NCBI GenBank assembly: GCA_020851735.1
Contig: JADZCD010000020.1
Coordinates: 1-64,000, forward strand
DNA length: 64,000 bases
DNA from: Phycisphaeraceae bacterium
Lineage (GTDB): Bacteria; Planctomycetota; Phycisphaerae; Phycisphaerales; Phycisphaeraceae
Direction: 5' to 3'
Both the position numbers and the translations under genes were made by a program. Below, piece by piece: positions 9,280 through 30,214 of this stretch (position 1 is its first letter; every line of letters starts with the position of its first letter). Below the pieces are notes generated by a model, which was given only the letters and a program-made list of their open reading frames with translations, was not told the DNA's origin and made no database searches.

Positions 9280-10290
9280 TCATCGACGCAACCGGGCGAC
9301 CACATCAGTCAACAACAGAGCAGATGGTCCAGAAGGGTCGCCTTGGGCGAGGCAATTGTGCAACTGGCGGCCGGCGAATTCGGCGGTATGGGCCGATAGT
9401 AAGAAGGCTCCCAAGGCCCAGGGCTGGGTGGTGACGTTGTCCGGCTCGGTGTTTTCCAGGTGATAGAGACAGGCGGATTCGATGCGGTTGAGCCAGGCGG
9501 CGTTTTGATCGATTGCCCAGAGGTTGAAAAGGGCGTGGAGGCTAAGTAACTCCCGATAACACCAGGCGTCCAACGATTCGACGCCCCCGCCCCCGGAAGT
9601 GAGCCCACCCCCGGAAGTGGTCGCGGCCCCGGAAGTGGCCAAACTGGCGGGAGTGATCGAGTCGGCCCCGCATTTCCATGCGGGGCTGAGCGGGGCGGGG
9701 CCAAGGGGGAGTAAGCCCCCATGGCGCGAGGCTGGGGAGGATTGGGGAAGAGGGCGCTTAAGGACGGCGTCCACAGCTTGGCGGCAAAGCTCCAGGCGAT
9801 CGGGCAATCCGAAAAGGAGGGCGTGTTCGTAGACGCACAGGGCGGACCAGAGCGCGTCGGCTGGGTTGGGCGCGCCCGTGGCCGGCGGGACCAGGCGGGC
9901 GAGCATGGGGGCAAGGGCCTGGGTGAGGAGGTCGGCGAAGGTTTGGTCCAGGGGCAGATGACATTCGCGAGAGGCGGAGAGCGTCAGGTGCAGGACCAGG
10001 GCGTAGTATTCGGGGCGGCGGTGGGTGGAGGCGTCGGTGAGGAAAGTGGAAGGGGGATCGCTTTGCGCGCAGGCGGCTAAGTGTACGACGGCAGAGCGCA
10101 GGGCCCCCACTTCCGCGGGGTCGATGGATTGGCCGGCGACATGGCGGAGGAGGAGGCGCGCGGCGGGCAGGCCCAAGTCGATGGTGGGGGTGGAAAGCGG
10201 AGGGAGCTGGGCGAAGGCGGGGGAGAGGATTAGGCGGGCTAAACTTTCCGCCAGTTGGTGGTATACGGTAAGCTGAGCCGAGGAATTCAT
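9280..10290 (-). CDS. Unidentified protein with an in-frame repeat insertion
   Basis: A 336-residue, mostly helical, Leu/Ala-rich protein that I do not recognise. Residues about 190-238 are of different character (Gly, Ser, Pro, Thr) and are encoded by repeat DNA: a type D hairpin gives SPAWKCGA at residues 202-209 and type E repeats give SGGG and TSGGGGVE up to residue 238. Removing this block joins two helical segments, the second starting at LDAWCYRELLSLHALFNLW. The reading frame stays open throughout. The same peptide SPAWKCGA and the same right-hand boundary occur in sthA (28682-30214). Confidence 0.6.
   Translation of the reverse strand: MNSSAQLTVYHQLAESLARLILSPAFAQLPPLSTPTIDLGLPAARLLLRHVAGQSIDPAEVGALRSAVVHLAACAQSDPPSTFLTDASTHRRPEYYALVLHLTLSASRECHLPLDQTFADLLTQALAPMLARLVPPATGAPNPADALWSALCVYEHALLFGLPDRLELCRQAVDAVLKRPLPQSSPASRHGGLLPLGPAPLSPAWKCGADSITPASLATSGAATTSGGGLTSGGGGVESLDAWCYRELLSLHALFNLWAIDQNAAWLNRIESACLYHLENTEPDNVTTQPWALGAFLLSAHTAEFAGRQLHNCLAQGDPSGPSALLLTDVVARLRR
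9577..9735 (+). repeat. Type E/D repeat cluster inside a coding region
   Basis: Several CCCCGGAAG units at 9588-9640, then the type D palindrome CCCCGCAT-ttcc-ATGCGGGG at 9666-9685, then a GGGGGAGTAAGCCCCC hairpin near 9715. The left 23 bases (9577-9599) are identical to 29327-29349 in sthA. All lie inside the 9280-10290 gene without breaking its frame. Confidence 0.85.
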
Positions 10291-10317
10291 GACCTTATTC
10301 TATGAAACCTGAATCAA

Positions 10318-10455
10318 AAGAACCGCCCAGTCGCCAAGAGCGCCAAGAAGACAGCCAAGATGAGTGTTTAAGAGAAGAAACCATTGCTTCATGACGGTTT
10401 GAAACTTGGCGGCATTGGCGGCGTGGCGGTTTAATGTATTTTGTCGGCGGTTTTA
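10318..10455. repeat. Inverted-repeat element K (about 135 bp), copy 1
   Basis: The arm AACCGCC..AGTCGCCAAG is answered by CTTGGCGGCATTGGCG and TGGCGGTT, with TAATGTATTTTGTCGG at the right end. A homologous copy lies at 36144-36278, sharing the arms, the middle block CAAGATGA.TGTTT, TTCATGAC and the right end TATTTTGT..GCGGTT. It looks like a small non-coding mobile or hairpin element; both copies sit directly upstream of a plus-strand gene. Confidence 0.75.
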
Positions 10456-10460
10456 AAGTG

Positions 10461-10466
10461 GAAGGA
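10461..10466 (+). promoter_or_regulatory. Ribosome binding site deciding the Rieske start
   Basis: GAAGGA lies 7 bases before the TTG at 10474. The more distal TTG at 10441 falls inside repeat element K and has no such site, so translation more likely begins at 10474. Confidence 0.55.
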
Positions 10467-10473
10467 ACGATCG

Positions 10474-10803
10474 TTGGCTGAGCGTTGGGTGGACATCGCG
10501 GCGGCGGAGGATTTCCCGCCGGGGACGCAGGCGGCGGTGGAGGTGGGCGGGCGATCGCTGGTATTGATGAATCTGGACGAACGGTATTTCGCGGTGGCGA
10601 ATATCTGTCCGCACGCGGGGCGGCCGCTGGCGGAGGGCGAGGTGGCGAACTTCAAGCTGACGTGCCCGTTTCACGGGTATACGTATGACCTGCGGACGGG
10701 GAAAAACGTGGACTTTCCGCATGAAGAGCTGCCGGTGCGCACGTTCGCGGTGCGGGTGGAAAATGGCAGGGTGCAGGTTTTGATGGAAGATAGAGGCGGA
10801 TAG
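10474..10803 (+). CDS. Rieske [2Fe-2S] ferredoxin-like protein
   Basis: A small 109-residue protein made of one Rieske domain. The cluster ligands are in ICPHAGRPL (Cys45, His47) and TCPFHGYTYDL (Cys64, His67), spaced as in ferredoxin components of nitrite reductase or aromatic dioxygenase systems. There is no membrane anchor, so it is a soluble electron carrier. I use the TTG at 10474, because the longer ORF start at 10441 lies in repeat DNA. The partner enzyme is not evident: neighbours are an unknown gene and a peptidase. Confidence 0.88.
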   Translation: MAERWVDIAAAEDFPPGTQAAVEVGGRSLVLMNLDERYFAVANICPHAGRPLAEGEVANFKLTCPFHGYTYDLRTGKNVDFPHEELPVRTFAVRVENGRVQVLMEDRGG

Positions 10804-10850
10804 GAAAAACCGCCAAGTCGCCAAGAGCGCCAGGAAGGCAGCAAATAACA
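10804..10850. repeat. Element K, partial copy (left arm only)
   Basis: AAAACCGCCAAGTCGCCAAG followed by AGCGCCAGGAAGGCAG matches the left arm of the elements at 10318 and 36144; the right arm is missing. It sits between the Rieske and peptidase genes. Confidence 0.6.
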
Positions 10851-10894
10851 ATCGCGCGGCTGATCGGCGGAAGTTCGAGGAAGGGAACCATCAC

Positions 10895-12289
10895 ATGCTC
10901 AGTCAAGTACTGGAACATTTAAAGCAGGATCAGGCGGCGGCGCTAGAGCGGTTTGAAAAGCTGCTGTCGATACCGAGTGTGAGCACGGACCCGGCGTATG
11001 GGTCACACGTGAACCAGGCGGCCCAGTGGCTGGTCGATGAGCTTAACGGCTTGGGCTTGCAGGCGCGGGTGATGCCGACGGGGGGTCACCCGGTGGTGGT
11101 GGCGGAAACGCCGGGGCCGCTGGCGGCGACGACGGAGCGCAAGATGCTGTTTTATGGGCATTACGACGTGCAGCCGCCGGACCCGCTGGAGAAGTGGACC
11201 AGCCCGCCGTTTACGCCGACGCGGCGGGCGGGGGCGATCTATGCGCGCGGGGCGAGCGATGACAAGGGCCCGGTGTGCTGCTTTATCGAGGCGCTGCGGG
11301 CGTGGCTTAAGACGACGGGAAAGCTGCCGCTGCCGGTGACGCTGATGATCGAGGGCGAAGAGGAATGCGGCGGGGAAGAGCACTTAATTGAGTTTATTAA
11401 GAAGAACAAGAAGCTGCTGCAGGCGGACCTGGCGCTGGTCAGCGACACGGGCGTGTGGGAGGCGGACGGCCAGACGATACCGGCGATCACGTATGGGCTG
11501 CGCGGGCTGGTTTATTTTGATATTCAACTGCACGGGCCCAAGCGCGATCTGCACAGCGGAGCGTATGGGGGGATTTTGGCTAATCCGGCGACGATGCTGA
11601 TGCGGGTGATCGCCAAGCTGTTTGATGAGAATAATCGCCTTACGATTCCGGGTTTTTACGACGACGTGCAGCCGGTGAGCGCGGAGGAAAAGGCTTGCTG
11701 GGCGAAGCTGCCGTTTGATGAGGTGGAGCAATTTAAATCGCTGGGGGTGAGTCGGCCGTTCGGGGAGAAGGGGTTTGATTTGTTCGGCCGAATGTGGGCG
11801 CGCCCGTGCTGCGACGTGAATGGGATGTACGGAGGCTACGAAGGCGAAGGGGCGAAGACGATTATCCCGGCGTTCGCGGGGGCGAAGATCAGTTTTCGCC
11901 TGCCGGCCAAGCAGGACCCGCGACGTATCGTGGAGCTGGTGGAGAACTGGCTGCGGGCGCAGGACACGGGCGGCTGCACGTGGAAGATTCAGCGGCTGGG
12001 GGCGGCGCACCCGGTGCTCGTGCCGATGGATTCGCCGTACATGCGGGCGGCGGCGCGGGGGTTGCGGACGGCGTTCGGCAGAGACCCGGTGCTGATCCGC
12101 GAGGGGGCGACGATTCCGGTGGTGGCGGATATCCAGCAACTGCTGGGGCTGGACGCAATCCTGATCGGGTTCGGCAAGGACGACGACTGCATCCATTCGC
12201 CGAATGAGAAGTTCGATCTGGAGATGTTCGCGCAGGGCTGCCGGGCGCATGCGTGTCTGTTGGAGGAGTTGGCGAAGGGGGGGGAGTGA
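10895..12289 (+). CDS. M20 family metallopeptidase (dipeptidase)
   Basis: A 464-residue di-zinc peptidase of the M20 dipeptidase/Cys-Gly dipeptidase type. FYGHYDVQPPD (His89 ligand, Asp91) is at residues 86-96, GASDDKGP (bridging Asp) at 119-126 and MIEGEEECGGEEH with the catalytic Glu at 151-163. The dimerisation/lid domain, roughly 200-340, contains DLHSGAYGGILANP; the last zinc His is expected in DDCIHSPNEKF near the C-terminus. No signal peptide is seen, so it is probably cytoplasmic. GGAAGGGAA precedes the ATG. It likely hydrolyses short peptides from protein or glutathione turnover. Confidence 0.92.
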   Translation: MLSQVLEHLKQDQAAALERFEKLLSIPSVSTDPAYGSHVNQAAQWLVDELNGLGLQARVMPTGGHPVVVAETPGPLAATTERKMLFYGHYDVQPPDPLEKWTSPPFTPTRRAGAIYARGASDDKGPVCCFIEALRAWLKTTGKLPLPVTLMIEGEEECGGEEHLIEFIKKNKKLLQADLALVSDTGVWEADGQTIPAITYGLRGLVYFDIQLHGPKRDLHSGAYGGILANPATMLMRVIAKLFDENNRLTIPGFYDDVQPVSAEEKACWAKLPFDEVEQFKSLGVSRPFGEKGFDLFGRMWARPCCDVNGMYGGYEGEGAKTIIPAFAGAKISFRLPAKQDPRRIVELVENWLRAQDTGGCTWKIQRLGAAHPVLVPMDSPYMRAAARGLRTAFGRDPVLIREGATIPVVADIQQLLGLDAILIGFGKDDDCIHSPNEKFDLEMFAQGCRAHACLLEELAKGGE

Positions 12290-12748
12290 AGAGATTCACC
12301 GCCGAGGACGCCGAGGACGCAGAGAAAGACAAGGAATTAGGCCGGGGATGAATGCAGATGGACGCGGATGAATGCGAAGAAATTGATTGTTTGAGGATAT
12401 TCGCCGCGGAGGGCGCGGGAGATGTCCAGGCGTGCTTTGTTCAAGACAGGTAAGACGACCCAGGCATGGCCCCCGGAAATGCCTGGGCTTGGACAAGGCA
12501 GAGAAGGCAGGCACACAGCAGGCTTCGCGATGCTGGGTGGCACCCGAGCGAAGGCAGGGCTTTATACCCTCACCGTTCGGCAGAGCTCACGGCCGAGGAC
12601 CTGCCCTCTCCGTGACAGGGAGAGGGGGGACAGGAACGCGGCGATCTGCGATCGCCCGCTAAACGGGCAGATGCCCAGGGAAGGAATCCCTGGGCTTTAT
12701 ATTGGCAATGATGGCAGGCGCACGGCGGTGGAGTCGAGGTTGTGCTAT
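12290..12748. repeat. Composite repeat cluster between convergent genes
   Basis: This 459-base gap is nearly all repeat: type F (TTCACCGCCGAGGACGCC, from 12295), ATGAATGCAGATGGACGC units, an A variant CCCAGGCAT...ATGCCTGGG (12459-12487), type H (12511-12545), type G carrying insert J (about 12566-12630), type B (GGCGATC-tgc-GATCGCC then CGCTAAACG, 12640-12666) and type A (12674-12694). All asymmetric modules lie in the plus orientation. Open frames across it are artefacts of repeat DNA. Confidence 0.85.
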
Positions 12749-13987
12749 CTAGGCCCCGAAGAGGTTGGGGGGTTGGAACATGTTTTTTTGGCGGAAGTAG
12801 TCGAGGGCTTCGTCGGTGGTTTTGAAGACCTTGGTGGCGGTTTCGGTGACGAAGGGTGAGGGGCTGCGGCGGGGACGCCAGACGACGTAGACTTCCTTGC
12901 CGTGCTCGTGGGCGTGCTGGAGTTCGCGTTCGACGCCGCTGGACAGGCCGGGGATGCCGAAGGATTCGGGGGAGGAGGCGGAGGCAGGCACGGCGATCTG
13001 CGATCGCCCGCTAAACGAGGAGGATGGTGATTCACCGCTTACTGACGTGCGCGGCTCGTTGATGCAGGCGATTGCGGGGGCGGGGAGTTCGGGGACGTAG
13101 CTGACGATCATGTCGGACTGGTCGATGAGTTTGAAGTCGCGGGCGTAGATCTGGCCGTCGATGTCGCCGGCGATGTCCAGGACTTGTTTGACGGAGACGG
13201 GGAAAGACTGGGGCGTGTCGTCGCCTAGGAGGCCGTGGCCCTGGATGAAGTCGCGGCTCTGCGTGGCGGCGGCGATGGCGGAATCCAGGAGGAGTTTTTC
13301 ATCCACGTCGCCGGGGTCGAAGGTGATGAATTGTTCGGCCAGGCGGCGGCGGAAGTCGTTGATCTCGGCCAGGACGGCGGGCATGCCGACGACGTGGGTC
13401 ATGGGGAAGGAGGGGTAGACCTTGCGCATGGTGGGGCGACAGACCAGGCGGAAGACGGTTTCGACGGTCGGCTCGTGGCGCCCGCGGGCGAGGATGTAAA
13501 AGCGCTGGGCGCAACCCAGAGCCTGGGCGAGCAGCTCGGTGGCCATGATCTCTTCCTCACGCCAGACCATCAGGTCCTTGAGGGAAACGTCCAGGGTGTG
13601 CTCGCCGTGCAGGCGGCGGTGGACGACTTCGATGTTGTCCACCAGGCAGATGAGCATGTCGGGGGCCAGGGCGCGGGCCTGGTCGAAATCAAAGGCGCTA
13701 AAGAGGCCGTGCCGCCAGCGGAAGGTGGCGTGGGTGTTGACGAGGATGTGCTTGTATTTGGCGGATTCGGTGATGATGTCCTTAAAGGCGGAGCGGCGGA
13801 GGGAGGAAAGGCGGGAGAGGGGCAGGTCGAGGATGCGCCCGGGCGAGAGGTCGGGGGCTTCGGCGTACATCATCTGCCCGACGTTGTAGAGGGCGACGGA
13901 CTCGCCGCGCTCGGAAGCTAACTGCACGACGCGCTGCAGATAGGGCCTTTTGTCCATTCCGACCTGGCCGGTGACGATGGCGCGCAT
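12749..13987 (-). CDS. P-loop nucleotide-kinase-like protein with deoxyribosyltransferase-like C-terminus and repeat insertion
   Basis: A 412-residue protein from the ATG at 13987 (MRAIVTGQVG). The N-terminal half looks like a divergent P-loop/adenylate-kinase fold (IVTGQVGMDKRPYL, then HILVNTHATFRW and DMLICLVDNI). The C-terminal part, from about residue 280, resembles nucleoside 2-deoxyribosyltransferase-like domains: QIYARDFKLIDQSDMIVSYVPELP followed, after an interruption, by IPGLSSGVERELQHAHEHGKEVYVVW. Residues about 308-344 between these two pieces are encoded by repeat types C and B (NEPRTSVSG and FSGRSQIAV) in frame. Substrate and reaction are not known; a nucleotide-handling role is inferred. 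Confidence 0.6.
   Translation of the reverse strand: MRAIVTGQVGMDKRPYLQRVVQLASERGESVALYNVGQMMYAEAPDLSPGRILDLPLSRLSSLRRSAFKDIITESAKYKHILVNTHATFRWRHGLFSAFDFDQARALAPDMLICLVDNIEVVHRRLHGEHTLDVSLKDLMVWREEEIMATELLAQALGCAQRFYILARGRHEPTVETVFRLVCRPTMRKVYPSFPMTHVVGMPAVLAEINDFRRRLAEQFITFDPGDVDEKLLLDSAIAAATQSRDFIQGHGLLGDDTPQSFPVSVKQVLDIAGDIDGQIYARDFKLIDQSDMIVSYVPELPAPAIACINEPRTSVSGESPSSSFSGRSQIAVPASASSPESFGIPGLSSGVERELQHAHEHGKEVYVVWRPRRSPSPFVTETATKVFKTTDEALDYFRQKNMFQPPNLFGA
12956..13066 (+). repeat. B + C repeat modules inside a coding region
   Basis: Type B (GGCGATC-tgc-GATCGCC, CGCTAAACG) at 12992-13017 is followed by type C (GCTTACTGACGTGCGCGGC TCGTT) at about 13038-13061. The A hairpin that separates B and C in the intergenic copies at 24681 and 26414 is absent. 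On the minus strand the block is translated in frame in the surrounding gene. Confidence 0.85.
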
Positions 13988-14393
13988 GAGTGTTCCTTGT
14001 CTGTCAGCCAACCACCTCTGGGGCACGCTACGCTTAGCCCCAGCCACCCTCCGGCACCGGACGCAATGCCGGCCCCACCTTTCCAGGTGGGGCTATATCG
14101 AATCCCAATACGGGCCCCGCATTTCCATGCGGGGCTACCCCCGGAAGCAGTCTCGCCCCCGGAAGTCGTGTCGCCCCCGGAAGTGCCCACGGAAGTAATT
14201 GCCGCGGCGGAGACTTAGCGGGGGAGCGCACGTGGGCGGGGGCGATTATATCGGCTGGGCGGGGGCGGGCCCGGTTGTGTTCGGTGGGGGGATGGTGCAT
14301 CATATGGTTTGGACCCGTTCACGAGTTCTTGCCGGGAACGGGGAGGTAGGAGTCCGGTCACCGCGTCCCAACACCTTTCTGGGAGCCAGCGTC
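13988..14393. repeat. Repeat-rich divergent intergenic region
   Basis: From left to right: type I hairpin CTGGGGC...GCCCCAG (14018-14043), two D-like palindromes (CCCCACCT-ttcc-AGGTGGGG, 14073-14092, and CCCCGCAT-ttcc-ATGCGGGG, 14115-14134) and a run of CCCCCGGAAG units (about 14143-14195). The two D stems differ by paired changes that keep complementarity. The last 190 bases, up to 14393, are repeat-free and should carry the floA promoter. Confidence 0.8.
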
Positions 14394-15410
14394 ATGGATA
14401 TGAATACGATTCTCGGAATTGTTCTGGTCATCGCCCTGCTGTTTCTGGTTTTTTTAATTGTGCTGGTGGGCAGCTATATCTCGCTATGGTTCCAGGCGTG
14501 GCTGAGCGACGCGCCGGTGGGTTTGGGCGAACTGATCGGGATGCGGTTTAGAAAGGTGGACACGCGGGTGATTGTGTACGCCCGCATTCAGTCGGTGAAG
14601 GCGGGGTTGACCATCAGCACGGCGCAGCTGGAGACGCATTATCTGGCTGGCGGACACGTGCGCAGCGTGGTGAACGCGATGATCGCGGCGTACCGGGCGA
14701 AGATTAATCTTTCGTGGGATACGGCCTGCGCCATTGACCTGGCGGGGCGGGATATTCTGGACGCGGTGCAGACGTCGGTGAATCCGAAGGTGATTGACTG
14801 CCCGAATCCCGCCAAGGGGGCGGACACGATCGCGGCGGTGGCGGCGGACGGGATTCAATTAAAGGCCAAGGCGCGGGTGACGGTGCGGACGAACATCGCC
14901 CGGTTGATCGGCGGGGCGACGGAAGAAACGGTGATCGCCCGCGTGGGGCAGGGGATTGTGTCGGCCATCGGGTCGGCGGCCAGCTACAAGAGCGTGCTGG
15001 AAAACCCCTCGAAGATTTCCAAGGTGGTGCTGGAAGAAGGATTGGCGGCGGGGACGGCGTTTGAGATTGTGTCGATCGACATCGCGGACGTGGAAGTGGC
15101 GGAGAACGTGGGGGCCCGGTTGCAGGCGGATCAGGCGGAGGCGGACAAGCGGCGGTTCCAGGCGGAGGCGGAAAAGCGGCGGGCCATGGCCATCGCCCAG
15201 GAACAGGAATTTAAGGCGGAAATCCAGAAGAATCAGGCGTTGGTGGTGCTGGCTGAATCCGAGGTGCCCAAGGCGATGGCGGAGGCCTTCCGCAACGGGA
15301 ACATGGGCATCATGGACTACTACCGGCTGCGCAACGTGCAGGCGGATACGGCGATGCGCTCGAGCATCGCCGGTGAGCCACAGAACAAGCCGGGGCAGCC
15401 CAACGCGTAG
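14394..15410 (+). CDS. floA: Flotillin-like protein FloA (SPFH/band-7 family)
   Basis: A 338-residue membrane scaffold. A hydrophobic N-terminal stretch (about residues 5-30) anchors it, followed by the conserved FloA block [26 protein letters not shown], the SPFH domain (about 60-230) and an Ala/Glu-rich helical C-terminus ([18 protein letters not shown]) that oligomerises. FloA marks bacterial membrane microdomains in Gram-positives and planctomycetes. An open frame extends back to 14199, but [10 protein letters not shown] at 14394 is the homologous start. It is transcribed alone and followed by a strong terminator-like hairpin. Confidence 0.93.
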
Positions 15411-15445
15411 GGGCGGGGCGATGCAAATGGTGTTGATAAGGAAGA

Positions 15446-15476
15446 CCCAGGGCCCGGTGGCCCTGGGCTTTTTTTT
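15446..15476 (+). terminator. Rho-independent terminator of floA
   Basis: A 9-bp stem CCCAGGGCC/GGCCCTGGG with loop CGGT is followed by CTTTTTTTT, 36 bases past the floA stop codon. The stem belongs to the type A repeat class, so a repeat copy seems to serve as the terminator. Confidence 0.85.
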
Positions 15477-15617
15477 GCGCGCAGGAGGGGAAGCGTGACG
15501 GGAGGTGTAAAACGGCGGCAGGCGGGCAGACCATGGAGGGCAGGCAAAGCGCTGAGGCACCCAGGGATGGCAATCCCTGGGCTTGTAAGACAGGACGTGC
15601 GGAATAGGAAGGCGGCG

Positions 15618-15644
15618 CCCAGGGTTTTTTTCCTGGGTTTTTTT
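15618..15644 (+). terminator. Terminator-like hairpin of A type
   Basis: CCCAGG, a T-rich loop, CCTGGG and then seven T residues. Being T-rich in loop and tail it differs from the usual A consensus but would terminate transcription reading rightwards. Confidence 0.55.
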
Positions 15645-15818
15645 CAGGCGTTTTTCCGGGCGGGGGCTTCGAGAGAGGGGACCTTCGGTCCGCCCGCTAA
15701 ACGGGAAGGTGCCCAGGGATTTCTTCCCTGGGCTTTATTGATGCCAGGCACAAGGCAACCCGCGGATGCCCCCCGGAAGTGCTGTGTGGCACCCTGCGGA
15801 GGGGGAAAGCGCGGAAAG

Positions 15819-17477
15819 CTATACGGCGAAGGTGTGGGGCCAGGCGAGTTCGACGCCTTGGTAGGTCAGCCAGTTCTGGAGTTCGGCGAGCTGGTCGCGG
15901 TTTTCGCGGACGGCGCGGGGGATGGTGTTGTGCTCGAGGCAGTAAGCGGCGGTCATGGCGGCGGATTCGCCGATGTTCCACTCGGTGGGGTGCAGGCGAT
16001 AGCAGCCGTTGGAGATGTGGGTGGACCCGATGTTCTTGCAGGCGGCTAGAAGATTGTTCACACGCTGGGGGATGAGGGCGCCGAGGGGAATCTGGTAGGG
16101 CAGGGAGGAGATGTCGATGTAATTATCGCCGCCGGTGGAGGGGTGGAGGTCGATGCGATAGCAGCCCAGGCCGACGGAGTCGAAGAAGGGCTCGGCGTGG
16201 ATGTCTTGCGCGGAAGGGCTGGCGGAGGAGGGGTCCTGCCCGCCGCGGGCGAGGAGTCCGACGTGGTTTTCGGTGACGGTGAAGACGGCGCGGATGCGGC
16301 GGGACTCGCGGATGTAGGGGGCTTTGGCCAGGCCGTTGGAGGTGCCGACGAGGTCGGGGCGCAGGTGCAGGCCGGGGTAACCCTGCCCGCCTTTAGGACG
16401 CGGGGCATCCGTCTGCATCCAGTAAAAGAGGCTGAGGGAAAGTTGTTTGGCGTCGTGTAGGTAGCGTTGGGCGTCTTCGGGGCGGGCGTCGATGAGGTTG
16501 CCTTCGAGGTAGTCGTTTTGGGGCCAATTGACCAAGGTGACTTCGAAGGGTCTGGCGTGGGGTTCGTAATGGTCGGCACAGACGATGCGGCGATAGAGCC
16601 AGAGGCGAGACTCATCGCCCTGGACACGGTCTTCGGTCAAGAGGACGTTGCGGCGAATGACGGAGACGTCACGCGGGGAGCAGGTGTTCCATATTAGGAG
16701 GGGCCCGCACCAGGGGGGAGTCATGGCGGGGAGCTGGTCGCGCCATTTTTCGTATTGGGCGGGTTTTTCGATCAGATAGCGTGAGCCGATGACTTCCGGG
16801 GGGCGGGGGTCAAAGGCCATGGGGAAGCACCAGGTCAGAGCCTGGACGTTGCCGGGGCCGGCGAGACGGCCGTCGTTGTCCTGCACGGCGTGGGGTTCGC
16901 TGGTGTCGCGCTGGGATTCGGCGCCGCTTACGTACTCCACGCCGGCGAGGGGAAGGACATCGCCAAGCTCGGTGGCGTCCAGGAAATATTTAGCTTCGAT
17001 GGTGACGGGCTGACCGGTGTCGAGGTTCAGGAGGGTGACGCCGTTGATGCGGTCGCGGTCGACGTCGGCGGCGGAGATTTTGTGGTTGAGCAGGACGATC
17101 AATTGGCCGCGGGAGCGATAGGCGGCCAGCATCTGATCGAGGACAGCCAAGGCGACGCGCGGCTCATGGCAGAGGCGTGAGACGTGGCCGTTGCCGGGGT
17201 TGAGGTGCGAATCGCGCAGGGCTTGGCTGGTCAGCGGATAGTGCTGCTTGTAGTAGGCGCGGACGGCTTGGCGGAACTGGCGGTAGCGGCGGGTGCAGCC
17301 GAATTGCTCGATCCAGGGGTGCTCGTCGGGCGGGACGGCTTGGGAGGTCAATTGCCCACCGAGCCAGTCGGTTTCCTCGGTGAGAACGACCCGCTTGCCT
17401 AAGGCACAGGCGCCCAGAGCGGCGGCACAACCGCCCAGGCTGCCGCCGATGACAAGAATGTCGGTGTGGAGTTGCAT
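15819..17477 (-). CDS. FAD-dependent oxidoreductase (FAD_oxidored type)
   Basis: A 552-residue flavoprotein. The N-terminal DILVIGGSLGGCAAALGACALGKRV (residues 5-30) is an FAD-binding Rossmann motif and GGQLTSQAV near residue 41-49 follows it. AKYFLDATELGDVLPLAGVEYVSG (about 160-185) and the C-terminal NNLLAACKNIGSTHISNGCYRLHPTEWNIGESA are diagnostic of the PF12831-like family, often annotated as xanthan-lyase-associated or glucose-inhibited-division-like oxidoreductases. The substrate is unknown; family members in this phylum are often near polysaccharide genes. It stands alone, flanked by repeat-filled gaps. Confidence 0.85.
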   Translation of the reverse strand: MQLHTDILVIGGSLGGCAAALGACALGKRVVLTEETDWLGGQLTSQAVPPDEHPWIEQFGCTRRYRQFRQAVRAYYKQHYPLTSQALRDSHLNPGNGHVSRLCHEPRVALAVLDQMLAAYRSRGQLIVLLNHKISAADVDRDRINGVTLLNLDTGQPVTIEAKYFLDATELGDVLPLAGVEYVSGAESQRDTSEPHAVQDNDGRLAGPGNVQALTWCFPMAFDPRPPEVIGSRYLIEKPAQYEKWRDQLPAMTPPWCGPLLIWNTCSPRDVSVIRRNVLLTEDRVQGDESRLWLYRRIVCADHYEPHARPFEVTLVNWPQNDYLEGNLIDARPEDAQRYLHDAKQLSLSLFYWMQTDAPRPKGGQGYPGLHLRPDLVGTSNGLAKAPYIRESRRIRAVFTVTENHVGLLARGGQDPSSASPSAQDIHAEPFFDSVGLGCYRIDLHPSTGGDNYIDISSLPYQIPLGALIPQRVNNLLAACKNIGSTHISNGCYRLHPTEWNIGESAAMTAAYCLEHNTIPRAVRENRDQLAELQNWLTYQGVELAWPHTFAV

Positions 17478-18012
17478 GATGAAGGCAGGATACGCAGGCG
17501 GGAGGGAAATCGCACGCGCCCCGGCCCCCGGAAGGGGAAGGTGGGGTAGAGGGTAGGGGGTAGAGGGTATGGGGTAGGGGGTATGGGGTAGGGGGAGGAA
17601 GAGAGAAAGGGGATGGCGGGAGAATACACCCTCACCCTGCCCTCTCCCTCAGCGAGGGAGAGGGGAAAGACAAGACGCTGGGGCACGGCTGCGCCTTAGC
17701 CCCAGGCACGCGGCGACAGGCAAGGGGAAATGATTCGGTTCGGCGAGTGATTTACGGTATGGGGGATTGACAGGGGACGCGGCGATGTGTGAGGGACCGC
17801 CAATTAAGACGGAGCCCAGGGAAGGAATCCCTGGGCTTTATTTAAGGCAGCTACGACAACCCAGGCACCCAGGCATGGCCCCCGGAAATGCCTGGGCTTT
17901 GGAAAGACAGTTTTGATAAGCACGCAGCACGCTGCGCGATGCTGTGTGGCACCCGGCAAAAAGCCGCGGTAAATGGAAATAGTTAACGAGTGATTTGTGG
18001 CGAGCTAGCCAC
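17478..18012. repeat. Repeat-rich intergenic region
   Basis: A 535-base gap between two minus-strand genes. It holds a G-rich tandem array (17541-17598), type G (17627-17665), type I hairpin CTGGGGC...GCCCCAG (17678-17705), type A (17815-17835), the A variant CCCAGGCAT...ATGCCTGGG (17868-17896) and type H (17920-17955). The region must also hold the promoter for the oxidoreductase at its left side. No gene is seen. Confidence 0.85.
17541..17598 (+). repeat. G-rich tandem array
   Basis: Imperfect repeats of GGGGTAGAGGGTA and GGGGTAGGGGGTAT. Runs of three to five G at short spacing give strong G-quadruplex potential on the plus strand. Confidence 0.75.
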
Positions 18013-19941: not shown

Positions 19942-20247
19942 ATCTGACCGTACCGCGCCGGGGGGAGAAGTTCAAGCGGGGGTGGGGGATTTGGCGATTT
20001 GGCGATTTGGTGATTTGGTGATTTGGTGATTTGGTGATTTGGTGATGTGACACGATGCGGGGGATGAGGGTGATAAGACAAGCCTCTGACGTAAGATGAC
20101 GGAAACGACTCTTCAAAACGCTGACGCGTGCACAATCCATCGCCAAATCGCCACACCGCCAGATTCTCACGCCTTCTTGCCTGTGGAGCGAGGGCAGACC
20201 ATACTCTTGACCGCACTTACACCCAACTAACGGGAAAGCTCAGGCTG
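19942..20247. other. Divergent intergenic region with an 8-bp tandem repeat
   Basis: Seven head-to-tail copies of GATTTGG(C/T) occupy 19988-20043, 47 bases upstream of the pyrG start. The remaining 200 bases up to gmhA hold no recognisable gene and must include promoters for both pyrG and gmhA. An ORF running into gmhA from 20128 has no homology before residue 41 and is not used. Confidence 0.7.
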
Positions 20248-23293: not shown

Positions 23294-23299
23294 CACTGG

Positions 23300-23305
23300 C
23301 TCCTT
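23300..23305 (-). promoter_or_regulatory. Ribosome binding site deciding the YhaM-like start
   Basis: AAGGAG on the minus strand lies 6 bases before the GTG at 23293 and only 3 before a second GTG at 23296, so the former is the better start. Confidence 0.6.
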
Positions 23306-23398
23306 GGCTATAGCTGTCAACGGATCGGTGCATCGTAACGCACGAGGCGGGACATCACCACAGAGCGGGGCAGGGCGTGGGGGGCGCGGCGGCGTGAT

Positions 23399-24127
23399 AT
23401 GATGCCCCGGCGCATGGACAACGTGCAGACCACAGTCAAACCGGCGACGGGCGGCCCGGCAACCAAGGGCGGGGGGCGGGGGTGCGTTTATCTGGCGCTG
23501 GGGGGCGTGGCGGTGGCGGCGATTGTCGGGGCGGTGCCGGGGCTGGACCTGAAAGTGGCGAATTGGTTTTTCGATCCTAAGGCGATTAAGCCTTGGGCGG
23601 GAGGATGGGAGCAGCCGTGGCAATGGCTGTACGAGTATGGGTACACGCCCGGATGGGTGTTGGCGATCGGCGCGGCGGCGGCGCTTGTTTATAGTCTGGT
23701 CCGGCGGACGTGGATCAGCCGTCGGGCGGTGCTGGTGGTGATTGTGCTGGCTACGGCGCTGGGTCCGGGGTTGCTGGTCAACGGCGTGCTAAAGCCCAAC
23801 TGGGGTCGGCCGCGCCCGGCACAGTTGGAGGTGTTTGGCGGGACGGAATCCTTCCGGGGGTGGTGGCAGCCGGGGGGACGGGGAGCGGGGGGAAGTTTTG
23901 CGTCCGGCCACGTGTCCATGACGGCGGTGCTGATTTCGGGGGTGCTTTTAATTCCCAAAGGACGCAGGAAAACGAGGCTGGCGGTGGCGGCGGGATGCGT
24001 GACGCTGACGGGGATGGTGGCGTATGCCCGGATGGCGCAGGGGGGGCATTTTCTGTCGGACGTGCTGTTCGCGGTGACGCTGACGTATCTGGTGATCGCG
24101 GGGTTGAGGCGGTGGGTGAAGGGGTGA
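23399..24127 (+). CDS. PAP2 superfamily membrane phosphatase
   Basis: A 242-residue integral membrane protein with about five hydrophobic segments. It carries the three phosphatase motifs: KPNWGRPRP, SFASGHVSM (the usual PSGH) and ARMAQGGHFLSDV (the usual SRxxxxxHxxSD). Such enzymes dephosphorylate lipid phosphates, for example lipid A 1-phosphate, undecaprenyl diphosphate or phosphatidylglycerophosphate; the substrate here cannot be told. The start could be the ATG at 23399 or the one at 23414, as the first residues are not conserved. It is divergent from the YhaM-like gene. Confidence 0.88.
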   Translation: MMPRRMDNVQTTVKPATGGPATKGGGRGCVYLALGGVAVAAIVGAVPGLDLKVANWFFDPKAIKPWAGGWEQPWQWLYEYGYTPGWVLAIGAAAALVYSLVRRTWISRRAVLVVIVLATALGPGLLVNGVLKPNWGRPRPAQLEVFGGTESFRGWWQPGGRGAGGSFASGHVSMTAVLISGVLLIPKGRRKTRLAVAAGCVTLTGMVAYARMAQGGHFLSDVLFAVTLTYLVIAGLRRWVKG

Positions 24128-24129
24128 CG

Positions 24130-24322
24130 CGGAAATCACCGCGAAGATCACAAAAAAAATAAGCCGCAGATGAACGCAGATAAACGCGGATTTAAGAAAT
24201 CAGGCCGCCCCTAAGAATTAGAGGTCAGATGCTTGGGTTCTATCTGCGTTCATCTGCGTTTATCTGTGGCTGATTTTCTGCGCTCTCTGCGATGATTCTG
24301 TTGGGGAAAGAGCGGTCGGGTA
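24130..24322. repeat. Nested inverted-repeat element between convergent genes
   Basis: AAATCACCGCGAAGATCAC and GCCGCAGATGAACGCAGAT on the left are answered by ATCTGCGTTCATCTGCG and CTCTGCGATGATTC on the right. The layout matches the F-type elements at 7168 and 22013 and again fills a convergent junction. Confidence 0.7.
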
Positions 24323-24556
24323 CTACTTGGGGATGTGGGCGGCGAATTTCTGGCGGAAGTCATCGAGGGTGTTGATGCCGGCGGGGAGTTTGGCTTCCTC
24401 GATGAGCATGATGGGGATGCCGTCGCGGATGGGGTAGCGCAGGCCCCCCACTTCTGCGATCAGTTCGTCGCCTTCCTGGCGCAGGCGGGAGCGGGTCAGG
24501 GGGCAGACCAGTACGTCCAGCAGTTCCGGGTCGAGTTTGGCGGCGGTGGGTGTCAT
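24323..24556 (-). CDS. Trm112 family protein (UPF0434/YcaR-like)
   Basis: A 77-residue protein of the bacterial Trm112-like family: [48 protein letters not shown] is the complete conserved core (residues 8-55). Only one Cys (Cys18) is present, so a full zinc ribbon is unlikely. Eukaryotic Trm112 activates methyltransferases; bacterial members commonly lie near kdsB or lpxK, but here the neighbours are a phosphatase gene and murA. Confidence 0.9.
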
Positions 24557-24796
24557 GTTTGTTGATCCTAAGAGGCGGGGGGACGTGGGGGAAATAACTG
24601 CTATTTCTCTGGGGCACGCGGCCCCCGGAAGATACTAAGTGGCATCTGACAGCAGGCACCCGGCAAGTCACTGGCAAGACGGCGATCTGCGATCGCCCGC
24701 TAAACGGCGTGGAGTGCCCAGGGATTTCTTCCCTGGGCTTTAATCCCCCGCTTGCTGACGCGCGCGGCTCGTTGGGAGGGCGCTTCCGGGGGGGGG
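24557..24796. repeat. Intergenic region with composite B-A-C repeat
   Basis: The composite occupies 24681-24773: B hairpin (GGCGATC-tgc-GATCGCC, CGCTAAACG), then A hairpin (CCCAGGGA...TCCCTGGG, 24717-24737, CTTTAAT), then C (ending GCGCGCGGCTCGTT). It differs at only 3 of 93 positions from the copy at 26414-26506. Degenerate I/E/H fragments (CTGGGGCACGCGGCCCCCGG) lie at about 24609-24660. Confidence 0.88.
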
Positions 24797-26179
24797 TTAG
24801 ACGGCGGGGCGGTCGACACGTTCGATGTCGGCGCCTAATTCGCGCAGGGTTTCCTCCATGCGGTAGTAGCCGCGATCCAAGTGATAGACGCGATTGACGG
24901 TGGTGGTGCCGCTGGCGGCCAGACCGGCTAGGACCAGGCCGGCGGAGGCGCGCAGGTCGCTGGCCATGACGGGGGCGCCTTCCAGTTCGCGCACGCCGCT
25001 GACGAGCACCGACGCGCCGCTGCGCACCAGGTTGGCGCCCATGCGGAGCAGCTCAGCGACGTGCAGGAAGCGGTCGGGGAATATTTTTTCGGTGATGATC
25101 GAGTTGCCGTCGGCTAAGCACAACAGGGCCATGATCTGGGCTTGGAGGTCGGTGGGGAACCCGGGGTGGGGCTGGGTGGTGACCTGAATGGGTTCCAGGC
25201 GGCGGCTGCTGGAGACGCGGACGGTGTGCCCGGCGCACATCTCGCTTAGTTGGCCTTGGGAAACGGGCTTGGGTTGGCCGTCCGGGACGACGACTTCGGT
25301 GTGGACGCCCACGGCGTGGAGGCGGTCGAGGGCGGCGCCCATGGCTTCAAGGGGGCAATTTTCCAGGGTGACGTCGCCGTTGGTCATGGCGGCGGCCATG
25401 ATGAAGGTGCCGGCCTCGATGCGGTCGGGAATGATGGCGTGTTCGACGCCGTGGAGTTTTTCGACGCCGTCGATGACCAGGCGGGGGGACCCGGCGCCTT
25501 CGATGTGGGCGCCCATGGCGATGAGCATGCGGGCTAAGTCGACGACCTCCGGCTCGCAGGCGGCGGATTCGATGATGGTGCGGCCCTCGGCCAGGGCGGC
25601 GGCGCACATGACGTTGTCGGTGCCTAAGACGGTGGACCCGAAGGGACCGCCTAGGAAAATTCGCGTGCCCTTTAAGCGTCCGGGCTTGCCGCGTTCGTAA
25701 CCGGGGGCCTGGGCGACGATGTACCCGCCGTCAAGGGTGATCTGGGCGCCTAAGGCGCGCAGGCCCTGGAGGTGCAGGTCGACGGGGCGGTCGCCGATGT
25801 TGCACCCGCCGGGCATGGAAACGCGGGCGAACCCGCGTTTGGCGAGCATGGGGCCCAGGACGCAGATGCTGGCCCGCATGGTGCGGACGATGTCGTAGGG
25901 GGCTTCGGACTTCTGGTCGTCCTTGGTGTGCAGGCGGACTTTCATTTCGCCGCGCTGGGTTGACCCGGCGTCGGCGGATTCCACGTTCGCGTCGACGCCC
26001 AGTTCATTGAGCAGGCGAATCATGTTGCGGATGTCGGCTAAGTCCGGCACGCTGGAAAGGTTGACCGGCTGGTCGGTCAAAAGGGCGGCCGCCATGAGGG
26101 GCAGGGCGGCGTTTTTAGCGCCGTGGACCCGTAAACGACCGCGTAAGTGTTTGCCGCCTTTAATGACAAATGCATCCAT
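24797..26179 (-). CDS. murA: UDP-N-acetylglucosamine 1-carboxyvinyltransferase
   Basis: A 460-residue MurA, first committed step of peptidoglycan synthesis (PEP plus UDP-GlcNAc), cytosolic. GAKNAALPLMAAALL (Lys22, Asn23) and the fosfomycin-target loop SMPGGCNIGDRPVDLHLQGL with Cys126 are intact. It is about 40 residues longer than E. coli MurA, partly through loops around residues 70-95 and near VPDGQPKPVSQ. The reading frame stays open for another 300 codons upstream, but that part is intergenic repeat DNA; MDAFVIKGG at 26179 is the real start. Presence of murA argues for a peptidoglycan-containing wall. Confidence 0.95.
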   Translation of the reverse strand: MDAFVIKGGKHLRGRLRVHGAKNAALPLMAAALLTDQPVNLSSVPDLADIRNMIRLLNELGVDANVESADAGSTQRGEMKVRLHTKDDQKSEAPYDIVRTMRASICVLGPMLAKRGFARVSMPGGCNIGDRPVDLHLQGLRALGAQITLDGGYIVAQAPGYERGKPGRLKGTRIFLGGPFGSTVLGTDNVMCAAALAEGRTIIESAACEPEVVDLARMLIAMGAHIEGAGSPRLVIDGVEKLHGVEHAIIPDRIEAGTFIMAAAMTNGDVTLENCPLEAMGAALDRLHAVGVHTEVVVPDGQPKPVSQGQLSEMCAGHTVRVSSSRRLEPIQVTTQPHPGFPTDLQAQIMALLCLADGNSIITEKIFPDRFLHVAELLRMGANLVRSGASVLVSGVRELEGAPVMASDLRASAGLVLAGLAASGTTTVNRVYHLDRGYYRMEETLRELGADIERVDRPAV

Positions 26180-26587
26180 AGCCTTATGTTCTCCCAAAAC
26201 GGGGCCCGGCTCGCAAATAGAGGGGCGGGCGATCAGGAATGAGCCTGGTGGTTTATCGGGAGATTGGGGGGAGGTGGATTGGGCGAAGGGGTGATGGGGT
26301 GAGTAATAAGAGGTTGGGGAAAAAGCTGGAAGACTGAAATGTGACCCCCCGGCAGAGCCGGGGGCTGAATCCAATGTGACGTGATGCCCTGTGGAAATCG
26401 TGGCGGCAGATACGGCGATCTGCGATCGCCCGCTAAACGGCGTGGAGTGCCCAGGGATTTTTTCCCTGGGCTTTAATCCCCCGCTTACTGACGTGCGCGG
26501 CTCGTTAAGGCAAGCGCTGGCGGGGGGTGGGGGGAAACATCCGGGCGAACATGGTAAAACAACCAACCCTATCTGAGGAGTTCTGCG
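26180..26587. repeat. Divergent intergenic region with composite B-A-C repeat
   Basis: The composite B-A-C lies at 26414-26506, a near-identical partner of 24681-24773, so two copies flank murA in direct orientation. The stretch 26340-26370 (CCCCCCGGCAGAGCCGGGGG) is a further hairpin. The promoter of murA should be in 26180-26330; the region just before apt (26540-26587) ends with GAGGAG. Confidence 0.85.
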
Positions 26588-27103
26588 ATGGACCTGCTGG
26601 CACTGGTTCGTGACATTCCGGATTGGCCTAAGCCGGGCATTGTTTTTAAGGACATTACGCCGCTGCTGCGGAATCCGGCGGGGCTGGCGATGGCGGTGGA
26701 GCTGATGGCTAATCCGTTCCGCGGCAAGGGGGTGGAGGTGGTGGTGGGCACGGAAAGCCGGGGGTTTATCTTTGGGGTGGCGGTGGCGCAGGCGCTGTCG
26801 GCGGGATTTGTGCCCATCCGCAAGCCCAAGAAGCTGCCTTACAAGACGGTAGGGATCGATTACGCCCTGGAATACGGGACGGATCGGCTGGAGGTACACA
26901 CGGACGCGGTGACCAAAGGCCAGCGGGTGCTGATGGTGGATGACCTTTTGGCCACGGGGGGGACGATGAAGGCGTCGTGTCAGCTGATCGCGGGATTGGG
27001 GGCCAAGCTCATGGGCATTTCGGTGCTTATTGAGCTGGCTTTCCTCAACGGCAAGGCCCAGTTGACCCCCTTCGCTGACGTGCATGCCGTTCTGAAAGTA
27101 TGA
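26588..27103 (+). CDS. apt: Adenine phosphoribosyltransferase
   Basis: A 171-residue purine salvage enzyme making AMP from adenine and PRPP. VVVGTESRGFIFGVAVAQAL (residues 51-70), KPKKLPYKTVGIDYALEYGTDRLE and the PRPP loop VLMVDDLLATGGTMKA (114-129) are all canonical. TGAGGAG sits 8 bases before the ATG. The stop codon overlaps the start of the CPBP gene (ATGA), so the two are coupled. Confidence 0.96.
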   Translation: MDLLALVRDIPDWPKPGIVFKDITPLLRNPAGLAMAVELMANPFRGKGVEVVVGTESRGFIFGVAVAQALSAGFVPIRKPKKLPYKTVGIDYALEYGTDRLEVHTDAVTKGQRVLMVDDLLATGGTMKASCQLIAGLGAKLMGISVLIELAFLNGKAQLTPFADVHAVLKV

Positions 27104-27912
27104 TGCCGGGGGTTATGACCCTGCCGCCCCGCTCACCTTCACGCAAGAAACAACAGCCGCCGCTGCAAAGCTATTGGCTGTTGGCGCAGCAGCCGCTGCA
27201 GTCGTTGTTTTTTTTATTGCCGCTGGTGCTGCTGTATGAAGTGGGGACGATTGTCTACATCCGTCACGCCACGGGCACGCCGACGCCGCACATTCTGGCG
27301 TACTCGATGCTGCAGCATTTTTTCGAGGCGGTGGGCGTGGGGCACGGGGCGTATTACCTGCCGGGGTTGATCGTGATCGTGGTGCTGCTTTGCCTGCACG
27401 TGGTGCGGCGGGATCGCTGGCAATTTGAAACGCACATTTATCTGTGGATGGGCATTGAATCGGTGCTGCTGGCCCTGCCGCTGTTCGTGCTGATGCTCAT
27501 AGGCTGGGGGGCGGCGACGCCGCAATGGCATCTGCTCCAGGCTCTGGATTCGACGCCGGCGACGCCGTGGCAGCCGATGCTGATTTACAGCGTGGGGGCG
27601 GGGATCTATGAGGAATTGCTGTTTCGCTTGATCGCCATCGCGCTGGTGCACATGTTCTTAGTCGATCTGTTGTCGCTGCCGGAGCACATCGGGGCGATCG
27701 GGGCGGTGGCGGTGTCGGCGTTGCTCTTTGCCCTGTATCACTTCGGCCCGGACAACCCGTTTAACGTGCGCAAGCTGGCGTTTTATTCCCTGGCGGGGAT
27801 TTACTTCGCGGTGGTGTATCTGCTGCGCGGGTTCGGCATCGTGGCGGGCACGCACGCGATGTACGACATTCTGGTGGTGCTGCTGCAGATTGCCCAGCAT
27901 CAAAACACTTGA
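27100..27912 (+). CDS. CPBP family intramembrane metalloprotease
   Basis: A 270-residue membrane protein with about seven hydrophobic segments. The three CPBP (CAAX protease and bacteriocin-processing) motifs are visible: YEELLFR (Glu171, Glu172, Arg176), ALYHFGPDN and GTHAMYDI, each with a conserved Glu or His of the catalytic centre. The substrate is unknown. It overlaps apt by 4 bases and is followed by cysC after 92 bases. A peptidase in this spot may simply be cotranscribed housekeeping. Confidence 0.87.
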
Positions 27913-28004
27913 TAGTCCTGCTTTTACCGGGCGGTTTGGACTTAGGTGGTAATTCCGCTACCATCCCCGCCTTCACCCTATATTTGAGGCAGGAGTTGAT
28001 TCCC

Positions 28005-28622
28005 ATGGCCCAGCAGAAAGCAACGAACATCACCTGGCACGACGGCGCGGTTACGGCGCAGGAGAGGCGGAAAAACCTGGGCCAAAAGGGCGTGACGGTG
28101 TGGATGACGGGCCTGTCGGCCAGCGGGAAGAGCACGATCGCGGTGGCGCTGGAGCAGGTGCTGCTGCAGCGCGGCAAGCACGCGTATCGTCTGGACGGGG
28201 ACAACATCCGGCACGGGCTGAATAAGAACCTGGGCTTCTCGGCCGAGGACCGGGCGGAGAACATCCGGCGGATCGGCGAGGTGGCCAAGCTGTTTGCCGA
28301 CGCGGGGCTGATCGCCATCACCAGCTTCATCAGCCCCTACGCGGCTGACCGCGAGGCGGCCCGCAAGCTGCACGCGGACGCGGGGCTGCCTTATATCGAG
28401 GTTTACGTGGATTGCCCGATCGCGGAGGCGGAAAAGCGCGACCCCAAGGGCCTGTACAAAAAGGCGCGGGCGGGGCAACTCAAAGGCTTCACGGGCATCG
28501 ACGATCCGTACGAAGCGCCGACGAACCCGGAATTGCACTTGCGCACGGATCAGCTTTCCATCGAACAGTCGGTGGAAAAGCTGCTGGAGTTGCTGGAGCA
28601 AAAAGGGTTGCTTAAGGCCTAA
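28005..28622 (+). CDS. cysC: Adenylyl-sulfate kinase
   Basis: A 205-residue APS kinase that makes PAPS from adenosine 5'-phosphosulfate and ATP. Walker [10 protein letters not shown] is at residues 36-44, [18 protein letters not shown] and the lid/APS motif [14 protein letters not shown] follow, then [30 protein letters not shown] precedes the ATG at 28005 by 9 bases; the frame is open from 27909 but the extra part is unconserved. No ATP sulfurylase (cysN/D or sat) is in the window. Confidence 0.95.
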
Positions 28623-28681
28623 GGCCAGGCGAGAGCGCAGGCTGCGGAATTTCCGGGGATTCGCCGCGGCGGACGGCGCGC

Positions 28682-30214
28682 TCAGGCGGCTTGGCGCATG
28701 CGGTTGAGGGCGTTGAAGGCGGCCACGCGATAGCACTCGGCGAGGGTGGGGAAGTTAAAGACGTTCTCCACGAAGAACCGCACGTCGCCGCCGAAGGACA
28801 TCACGGCCTGGCCGATGTGGATCAGCTCGGTGGCGCCGGTGCCGATGATGTGCACGCCCAGAATCTTGCGGGTTTCCTGGTGGACTAACAGTTTCAGCAG
28901 GCCTTCATGGTCGCCGAGCAACTGCCCGCGGGCGATCTCCTGATAAAGAGCTGTGCCCGACTCAAAGGGAATGCCCTCGGCGGTGAGCTGCTGCTCGGTC
29001 TTGCCGATCATGGAGATTTCCGGCACGGCGTAGATGCCGTAGGGCAAAAGCTCGGTCATGCCGCCGGTGTCGGCGCCGCAGGCGTGGCAGGAAGCTTGCC
29101 GGCCCTGCTCCATGGCGGTGCTGGCCAGGGCGGGGAACCCGATCACGTCGCCGACGGCGTAGATGTGGGGCGCGGCGGTCTGGAAGTGCTCGTTGACTTT
29201 CAAGCGGCCGCGTTCGTCGGCGGCTAAGCCCACGTTTTCCAGGGCTAATTCGCGGGCGTTGCCCTCACGGCCCACGGCGTATAAAAGCGTCTGGGCCCGC
29301 AAGCGTTTGCCGGATTCCAGCACGGCTTCGACGCCCCCGCCCCCGGAAGAAGTGCCCCCGGAAGGTACCGAGCCGGCCCCGCATTTCCATGCGGGGCTAT
29401 CACCGGCCCCGGAAGTCTCGGAAACTTCGGAAGCTTCGGAGGGAGTGCTCTTTGACGCTTCGTCTGAGGATGGCATCGGTTCGGACAGGCGCTGGATGCT
29501 GGCGACTTTTTCGCCCAGGCGCAGGGAGATGCCGGCGCGGCGCATGTGGTAGTGAAAGGCTTCGCAGATTTCCTGGTCGAGGAAGCCGAGCACCTGATTC
29601 TTGGCGTCGATGAGGGTAACGCTCACGCCGAGGGTGGCCATGATGCAGGCGTATTCGGTGCCGATGACGCCGCCGCCGACGACGATCATGCTGCGGGGGA
29701 GGGTCTTAATCTGCAGCACGCCGTCGGAACAGACCACGGTGTGATCGTCAAAAGGAACCTGGGCAGGACGGGCGGGGCGGGTGCCGGTGGCGATGATGAA
29801 TTTGTCGGCCATCACCAGTTGGGTGTCGTTGGCGCAGGTGACCTGCAAAAGGTTGGGGCCTTCAAAATGAGCGGTGCCCCAGACGACGTCGATGCCGTTG
29901 CGCTCGAACTGCTCCTGGAGCATTTCCAATTCGGTGTGGATGACCTGCTGGCTGACGTAGATCAGGTCGGTGATGGTGATGTCGCGTTTGACGCGGTGGC
30001 TGCGTCCAAAGAGTCCGCGGCGGCTGGCGCCGGTGAGGTGCATGGCGGCTTCGCGCAGGGCTTTGCTGGGGATGGTGCCGGTGTTGACGGCGGCCCCGCC
30101 GAGCTTCTCGTGCTTTTCAATGATGACCACGCTCTTGCCGAGCTTGGCGGCCTGGATGGCGGCCTTCTGTCCGGCCGGTCCGGTACCGATCACCGCGATG
30201 TCATAATGACGCAT
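28682..30214 (-). CDS. sthA: Soluble pyridine nucleotide transhydrogenase, with in-frame repeat insertion
   Basis: A 510-residue flavoprotein, about 45 residues longer than E. coli SthA. It binds FAD (AVIGTGPAGQKAAIQAA, residues 7-23) and NAD(P) (IVVGGGVIGTEYACIMA, 177-193) and has NTGTIPSKALREA in place of the disulfide of related dehydrogenases, as in SthA. C-terminal GVHIIGTGATELIHIGQA and NFPTLAECYRVAAFNALNR are intact. Residues about 243-294 are an insertion rich in Ser, Glu, Pro and Gly, carrying SPAWKCGA (273-280) and SGGGGVE (290-296), placed in the loop between two beta strands where E. coli SthA has a short turn (DDGV). The enzyme could still fold around it. Confidence 0.9.
   Translation of the reverse strand: MRHYDIAVIGTGPAGQKAAIQAAKLGKSVVIIEKHEKLGGAAVNTGTIPSKALREAAMHLTGASRRGLFGRSHRVKRDITITDLIYVSQQVIHTELEMLQEQFERNGIDVVWGTAHFEGPNLLQVTCANDTQLVMADKFIIATGTRPARPAQVPFDDHTVVCSDGVLQIKTLPRSMIVVGGGVIGTEYACIMATLGVSVTLIDAKNQVLGFLDQEICEAFHYHMRRAGISLRLGEKVASIQRLSEPMPSSDEASKSTPSEASEVSETSGAGDSPAWKCGAGSVPSGGTSSGGGGVEAVLESGKRLRAQTLLYAVGREGNARELALENVGLAADERGRLKVNEHFQTAAPHIYAVGDVIGFPALASTAMEQGRQASCHACGADTGGMTELLPYGIYAVPEISMIGKTEQQLTAEGIPFESGTALYQEIARGQLLGDHEGLLKLLVHQETRKILGVHIIGTGATELIHIGQAVMSFGGDVRFFVENVFNFPTLAECYRVAAFNALNRMRQAA
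29327..29480 (+). repeat. Type E/D repeat cluster inside sthA
   Basis: CCCCGGAAG units at 29334-29365, the D palindrome CCCCGCAT-ttcc-ATGCGGGG at 29377-29396 and a CGGAAG-type run (GGAAGTCTCGGAAACTTCGG) at 29405-29440. The left 23 bases (29327-29349) are the same as at 9577-9599. The minus-strand frame of sthA runs through without a stop. Confidence 0.88.

Follow-up and report, generated by a model that had tools for sequence, protein, structure and literature searches.

Two genes on the reverse strand of the window, the whole stretch of 64,000 nucleotides analyzed here, carry the same palindromic repeat inside their reading frames. The first gene (9280-10290) encodes a protein of 336 amino acids (AA) that had no match in Pfam or NCBIfam, with homologues in 48 of the 61 genomes searched, most of the family; the second (28682-30214) encodes a protein of 510 AA matching Pyr_redox_2/SthA, the soluble pyridine nucleotide transhydrogenase, of which the genome holds no other close copy. 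As described in the initial annotation, both open reading frames are present and CCCCGCATTTCCATGCGGGG lies inside each of them in the same frame, reading SPAWKCGA in both. The codons for this peptide coincide with the core of the palindrome, at 9664-9687 in the 336-AA protein gene (hairpin 9666-9685) and at 29375-29398 in sthA (hairpin 29377-29396), both on the reverse strand, and the uninterrupted frames suggest that the two inserts would be translated with their hosts. The proteins had been called otherwise unrelated, in agreement with BLASTP, which returned the repeat-encoded block as their sole similarity.

The palindrome occurs three times in the window against a chance expectation of 0.07 when up to three mismatches are allowed. 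Its third copy (14115-14134, forward strand) is not in a supported gene, and has near it a stem variant, CCGGCCCCACCTTTCCAGGTGGGGCT (14069-14094), and two short GC-rich repeats that we call E units, starting at 14157 and 14175. The hairpin folds as single-stranded DNA, with a z of -3.0 for the copy at 9666-9685.

In sthA the insert encompasses about 48 residues (~245-292; 29339-29482, reverse strand) and consists of the hairpin, E units and a flank rich in S, T and E; two of the E units are spaced by 15 nt (29340-29364, forward strand) and a further one lies at 29407-29416. Full-length matches to SthA in more than 30 genomes align with residues 1-244 and 289/295-507 with few residues between them. 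The solved soluble transhydrogenase 9n4y likewise aligns to residues 3-242 and 293-506, having 2 residues where SthA has about 50, and the AlphaFold model predicts residues 250-291 as disordered (pLDDT below 50) between the strands 237-242 and 295-299, being confident elsewhere except for two short stretches (42-47 and 66-72). Alignment and model support the location in a beta-turn that had been proposed for this insert, a turn putatively equated with DDGV of the E. coli protein in the initial annotation. From one relative to another the loop at this site is several residues longer or shorter, which indicates a naturally variable turn.

The insert of the 336-AA protein is shorter, about 40 residues (~197-236; 9583-9702, reverse strand); the ~50 residues given in the initial annotation are right for the insert of sthA. 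It contains the hairpin and three E units, CCCCGGAAGT, with an 18-nt spacing (9591, 9609 and 9627; 9591-9636, forward strand). Matches to its homologues stop near residue 185 and restart at 234-238, the block being absent, and the alignment shows that a few extra residues also precede the insert. In both proteins, then, the relatives lacking the block match on its two sides, and none of the repeat-free relatives has a loop of equal length and sequence. One detail of the initial annotation did not stand, namely SGGGGVE as a boundary peptide shared by the two inserts: SGGGG comes from the E unit, while the V-E looks host-encoded in both proteins (relatives read VEAVLESGKRL and DESLDAW), and we rejected SGGGGVE as a repeat-borne motif. 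The heptamer TTCGACG precedes 2 of 25 such E arrays, those of the sthA and 336-AA protein genes.

The hairpin, the E units and the transposase genes

About 107 copies of the hairpin, within a few mismatches, were found in this genome. Near copies were present in a single one of 391 other genomes of the phylum (four copies), and three to five of 60 near relatives have one to six copies each. The consensus over 100 copies is [H][Y]AG-CCCCGCAT-GGAA-ATGCGGGG-CCGGYT or CCGGYTY, with sharp ends, a stem of 8 bp, a loop of 4 nt and a conserved core of ~27-30 nt. Variants of the stem retain pairing (GCAT/ATGC, ACCT/AGGT, ACGT/ACGT). On the 5' side AG is fixed, the consensus being HYAG, and GTAG occurs in just 12 of the 100 copies; on the 3' side, CCGGCT or CCGGYT adjoins most copies. 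No stop codon occurs in any of the six frames, either in the hairpin or in the E units.

The E unit CCCCCGGAAGTG occurs 280 times in this genome and is present in 41 of the 61 genomes, mostly without the hairpin. We therefore rejected the idea of a single element composed of hairpin and E units, and from this distribution we regard the latter as a separate tandem repeat that often adjoins the hairpin.

Six Y1 transposase genes were matched in this genome. One of them (contig C28, 77097-77591), encoding 165 AA with a THLHL motif, is flanked within ~150 bp by five hairpins, split three to two between its sides, and is the only one of the six with this stem on both sides. Its product is 51% identical to a second copy on contig C65, which matches the IS200/IS605 transposase model; the Pfam score of the C28 transposase itself is borderline. 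Orthologues of the C28 gene in other genomes (~32-43% identical) are, in most of the cases examined, flanked by inverted hairpins of like layout, mostly AG followed by an 8-bp stem with a 4-nt loop, the stem sequence being particular to each. That each transposase goes with a hairpin of its own is the mark of REP/RAYT systems (PMC3116915, PMC6006769). TnpA_REP cleaves at CT (PMC8266576), and the CCGGCT or CCGGYT beside the hairpin copies would fit such a cleavage site. The C65 paralogue (17281-17742) is flanked by inverted hairpins of its own, CCGCCGGC-GGAA-GCCGGCGG, indicating several REP families in the genome, with a separate gene for each.

The hairpin is in our view likely to be an element of the REP type. 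A REP-associated tyrosine (HUH/Y1) transposase resident in this genome would disperse it in trans, single-strand cutting and joining of the hairpin seeding copies at many sites. Against this reading stand the rarity of the GTAG tag, the borderline Pfam score, the flanking of just one of the six Y1 genes by this stem on both sides, and the fact that neither excision nor transposition nor an empty site was observed within the species. The copies could also have been made without a transposase, through slippage during replication, gene conversion, or recombination involving hairpins and GC-rich tandem units, an explanation suggested by the E units, which act as tandem arrays and occur family-wide in the absence of the hairpin. 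We hold this to be improbable, as it does not agree with the sharp ends of the hairpin, with its scattered and unrelated sites, or with its clustering round a transposase gene in the manner of the hairpins of the orthologues.

Copies of the hairpin inside genes

Fourteen copies lie within coding frames for which codon usage, with the window as training set, gives support to either side of the hairpin, and five of the six possible frames occur among them. Besides SthA and the 336-AA protein, the hosts are alanine racemase, Tgt, TsaD, Dus, glycerate kinase, a 2-hydroxyacid dehydrogenase, a VKOR protein, a glycosyltransferase, a GH20 protein, a PHP protein, a DHH phosphoesterase with two hairpins and one protein without identification; the weakest cases (L002 and L122) combine codon usage with a one-sided domain match. 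Solved homologues that lack the block and match on both of its sides were found for alr, tgt, tsaD, dus, glycerate kinase and nrnA. The insert has 61 residues against 7 in the solved homologue for TsaD, 29 against 2 for Dus, 40 against 0 for glycerate kinase, 86 against 8 for NrnA and 46 against 24 for alanine racemase. Tgt (L029:611-2134) has two separate in-frame inserts, one bearing the hairpin and the other made of E units alone (LPGVGALPGVG).

Copies are nevertheless strongly depleted in genes, in which they resemble other REPs: only 14 of the 85 copies with enough flank fall in coding sequence, as compared with 60% of random window positions (p ~2e-16). The E units within genes are constrained as well, since all 23 of their spacings are divisible by three versus 52 of 80 outside genes (Fisher p 3e-4, with the reservation that spacings from a single array depend on one another), a result that suggests selection to preserve the reading frame across the blocks.

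These data bear on the proposal that the hairpin is a selfish protein-coding element, of the kind of the Rickettsia palindromic elements (RPEs), selected for encoding a benign peptide and targeting genes. In-frame copies in many unrelated genes would agree with it, as would the SPAWKCGA frame being used in three of them, the alanine racemase insert also reading SPAWKCGA. However, the copies are depleted in genes and most of them are intergenic, and the five frames give five different peptides with none preferred, which makes this explanation unlikely. Given the use of five frames, SPAWKCGA itself is not special; we rejected a particular role for this peptide, which is not conserved, and a literature search for it found no match.

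Still less probable, in our opinion, is that the inserts are functional additions (linkers with a regulatory role, for example, or loops for interaction) that selection maintains for their peptide. The host genes are intact, the inserts are long and the E arrays keep the frame, all of which could be expected from functional additions, but the hosts are unrelated enzymes, the peptides differ, their predicted order is low and they are absent from every relative. That chimeric joins at repeats created false inserts in the assembly or in the frames is hardly credible, given that each intragenic case checked joins both halves of one protein family in one frame, even if several hairpin copies lie near contig ends.

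Insertion of a REP-type element by its transposase would account for the intragenic copies as follows. An insertion with a length that is a multiple of three, placed in a surface loop, would be read through for lack of stops and tolerated as a disordered linker, whereas insertions of other lengths or otherwise placed would be purged from genes; the depletion could also reflect the choice of targets instead of purging. E units adjoining the hairpin may then make the insert longer or shorter by frame-preserving steps. The insert peptide itself is most likely without function. A stop-free palindrome would thus be readable in several frames and tolerated in loops, with the tandem units in genes keeping to multiples of three. 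The genome offers a natural experiment on the conversion of mobile DNA into protein, with a recently multiplied element, many insertions into named enzymes whose homologues have been solved, and relatives free of the repeat. For annotators, it is useful to recognize SPAWKCGA, APHGNAGP, GPAFPCGA and LPGALPGT as repeat-borne peptides and not as domains.

A cassette within valyl-tRNA synthetase and other repeats

A REP-RAYT-REP cassette was observed in frame inside the valyl-tRNA synthetase gene of this genome (contig C15, 196-3426), within a frame of 1288 AA, the Y1 match being flanked on either side by inverted repeats, CAACGAGCCGCGACCGTGAGGGAGCGG. Six or seven relatives from several families of the order have this cassette at that very site, most relatives being without it, and in one genome (G052) the same site holds a different RAYT with its own repeats (NCBIfam REP_Tyr_transpos, 90 bits, over the cut-off). 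The motifs of the transposase borne by the synthetase, NHVH / WT / YV..Q, resemble those given for Class 3 in PMC6006769. No account of a valyl-tRNA synthetase containing a transposase came up in a literature search with the terms used, and this cassette may be more novel than the hairpin finding. We put forward tentatively, and as something short of an even chance, that loops of host proteins are a regular habitat of REP systems in this lineage, receiving both hairpins and whole in-frame cassettes with two types of transposase; if true, a transposase would be translated together with, or released from, the essential enzyme valyl-tRNA synthetase.

Other repeats were noted in the window. The repeat CCGCTTACTGACGTGCGCGGCTCGTTG, at 13030-13060, 24743-24773 and 26476-26506, resembles the inverted repeats of the synthetase cassette. 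A second palindrome family, GCCCAGGGAAGGAATCCCTGGGCTTTA together with a variant having a TTTCTT loop, has nine or ten copies (positions 2551, 5608, 12665, 15703, 17806, 24708, 26441, 32451 and 34965), and an 8-nt tandem, GGTGATTT/GGCGATTT, is repeated about nine times at 19977-20048.

Comparison with known systems

Inteins and self-splicing introns were rejected, the inserts of 40-50 residues being too short for an intein and Rfam giving no match within 9000-30500 of the window. IS200/IS605 single-strand transposition involves the same HUH/Y1 enzyme family recognizing a hairpin, although in this genome the hairpins are scattered, enclose no gene and are only putatively mobile.

The initial annotation compared the repeat to the palindromic elements of Rickettsia genes, a family able to enter genes and be kept as a peptide. 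This is supported by the homologues that lack the block and by at least 12 further in-frame copies in other genes. As in RPEs, a palindromic repeat occupies the reading frames of many unrelated proteins, is missing from their homologues and is tolerated at surface positions. While it works like an RPE, the hairpin is better classed with the RAYT-associated REP elements: the peptide is not conserved, five reading frames are used, a transposase is associated and the core has ~27-30 nt, in contrast to the ~150 bp first reported for RPEs (PMC10969869).

With REP/RAYT systems (REPtrons; PMC3733652, PMC8266576, PMC6006769) the hairpin shares a short perfect palindrome, in the range of 20-40 nt, with a small loop, AG just 5' of the stem, a high copy number, a mostly extragenic location, a Y1/HUH transposase gene flanked by copies in both orientations (the C28 gene) and some copies in frame in genes. 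It differs in the tag beside the stem, which is HYAG here and GTAG/GTGG or CGTC in REPs, in the conserved CCGGYT on the 3' side, in its joining with E arrays of 12/18 nt and in the fraction of copies inside genes, about one in seven. We conclude that the hairpin works like a REP and probably is one, and since so few copies have the strict GTAG tag we do not file it as a canonical tagged REP. In-frame intragenic REPs encoding 20-80 residues have been reported in Opitutus terrae, Thauera and other bacteria, a class to which RPE-4 and RPE-6 of Rickettsia also belong (PMC3733652). Intragenic REPs being already published (PMC3733652), the present case is a new, dense variant of them.
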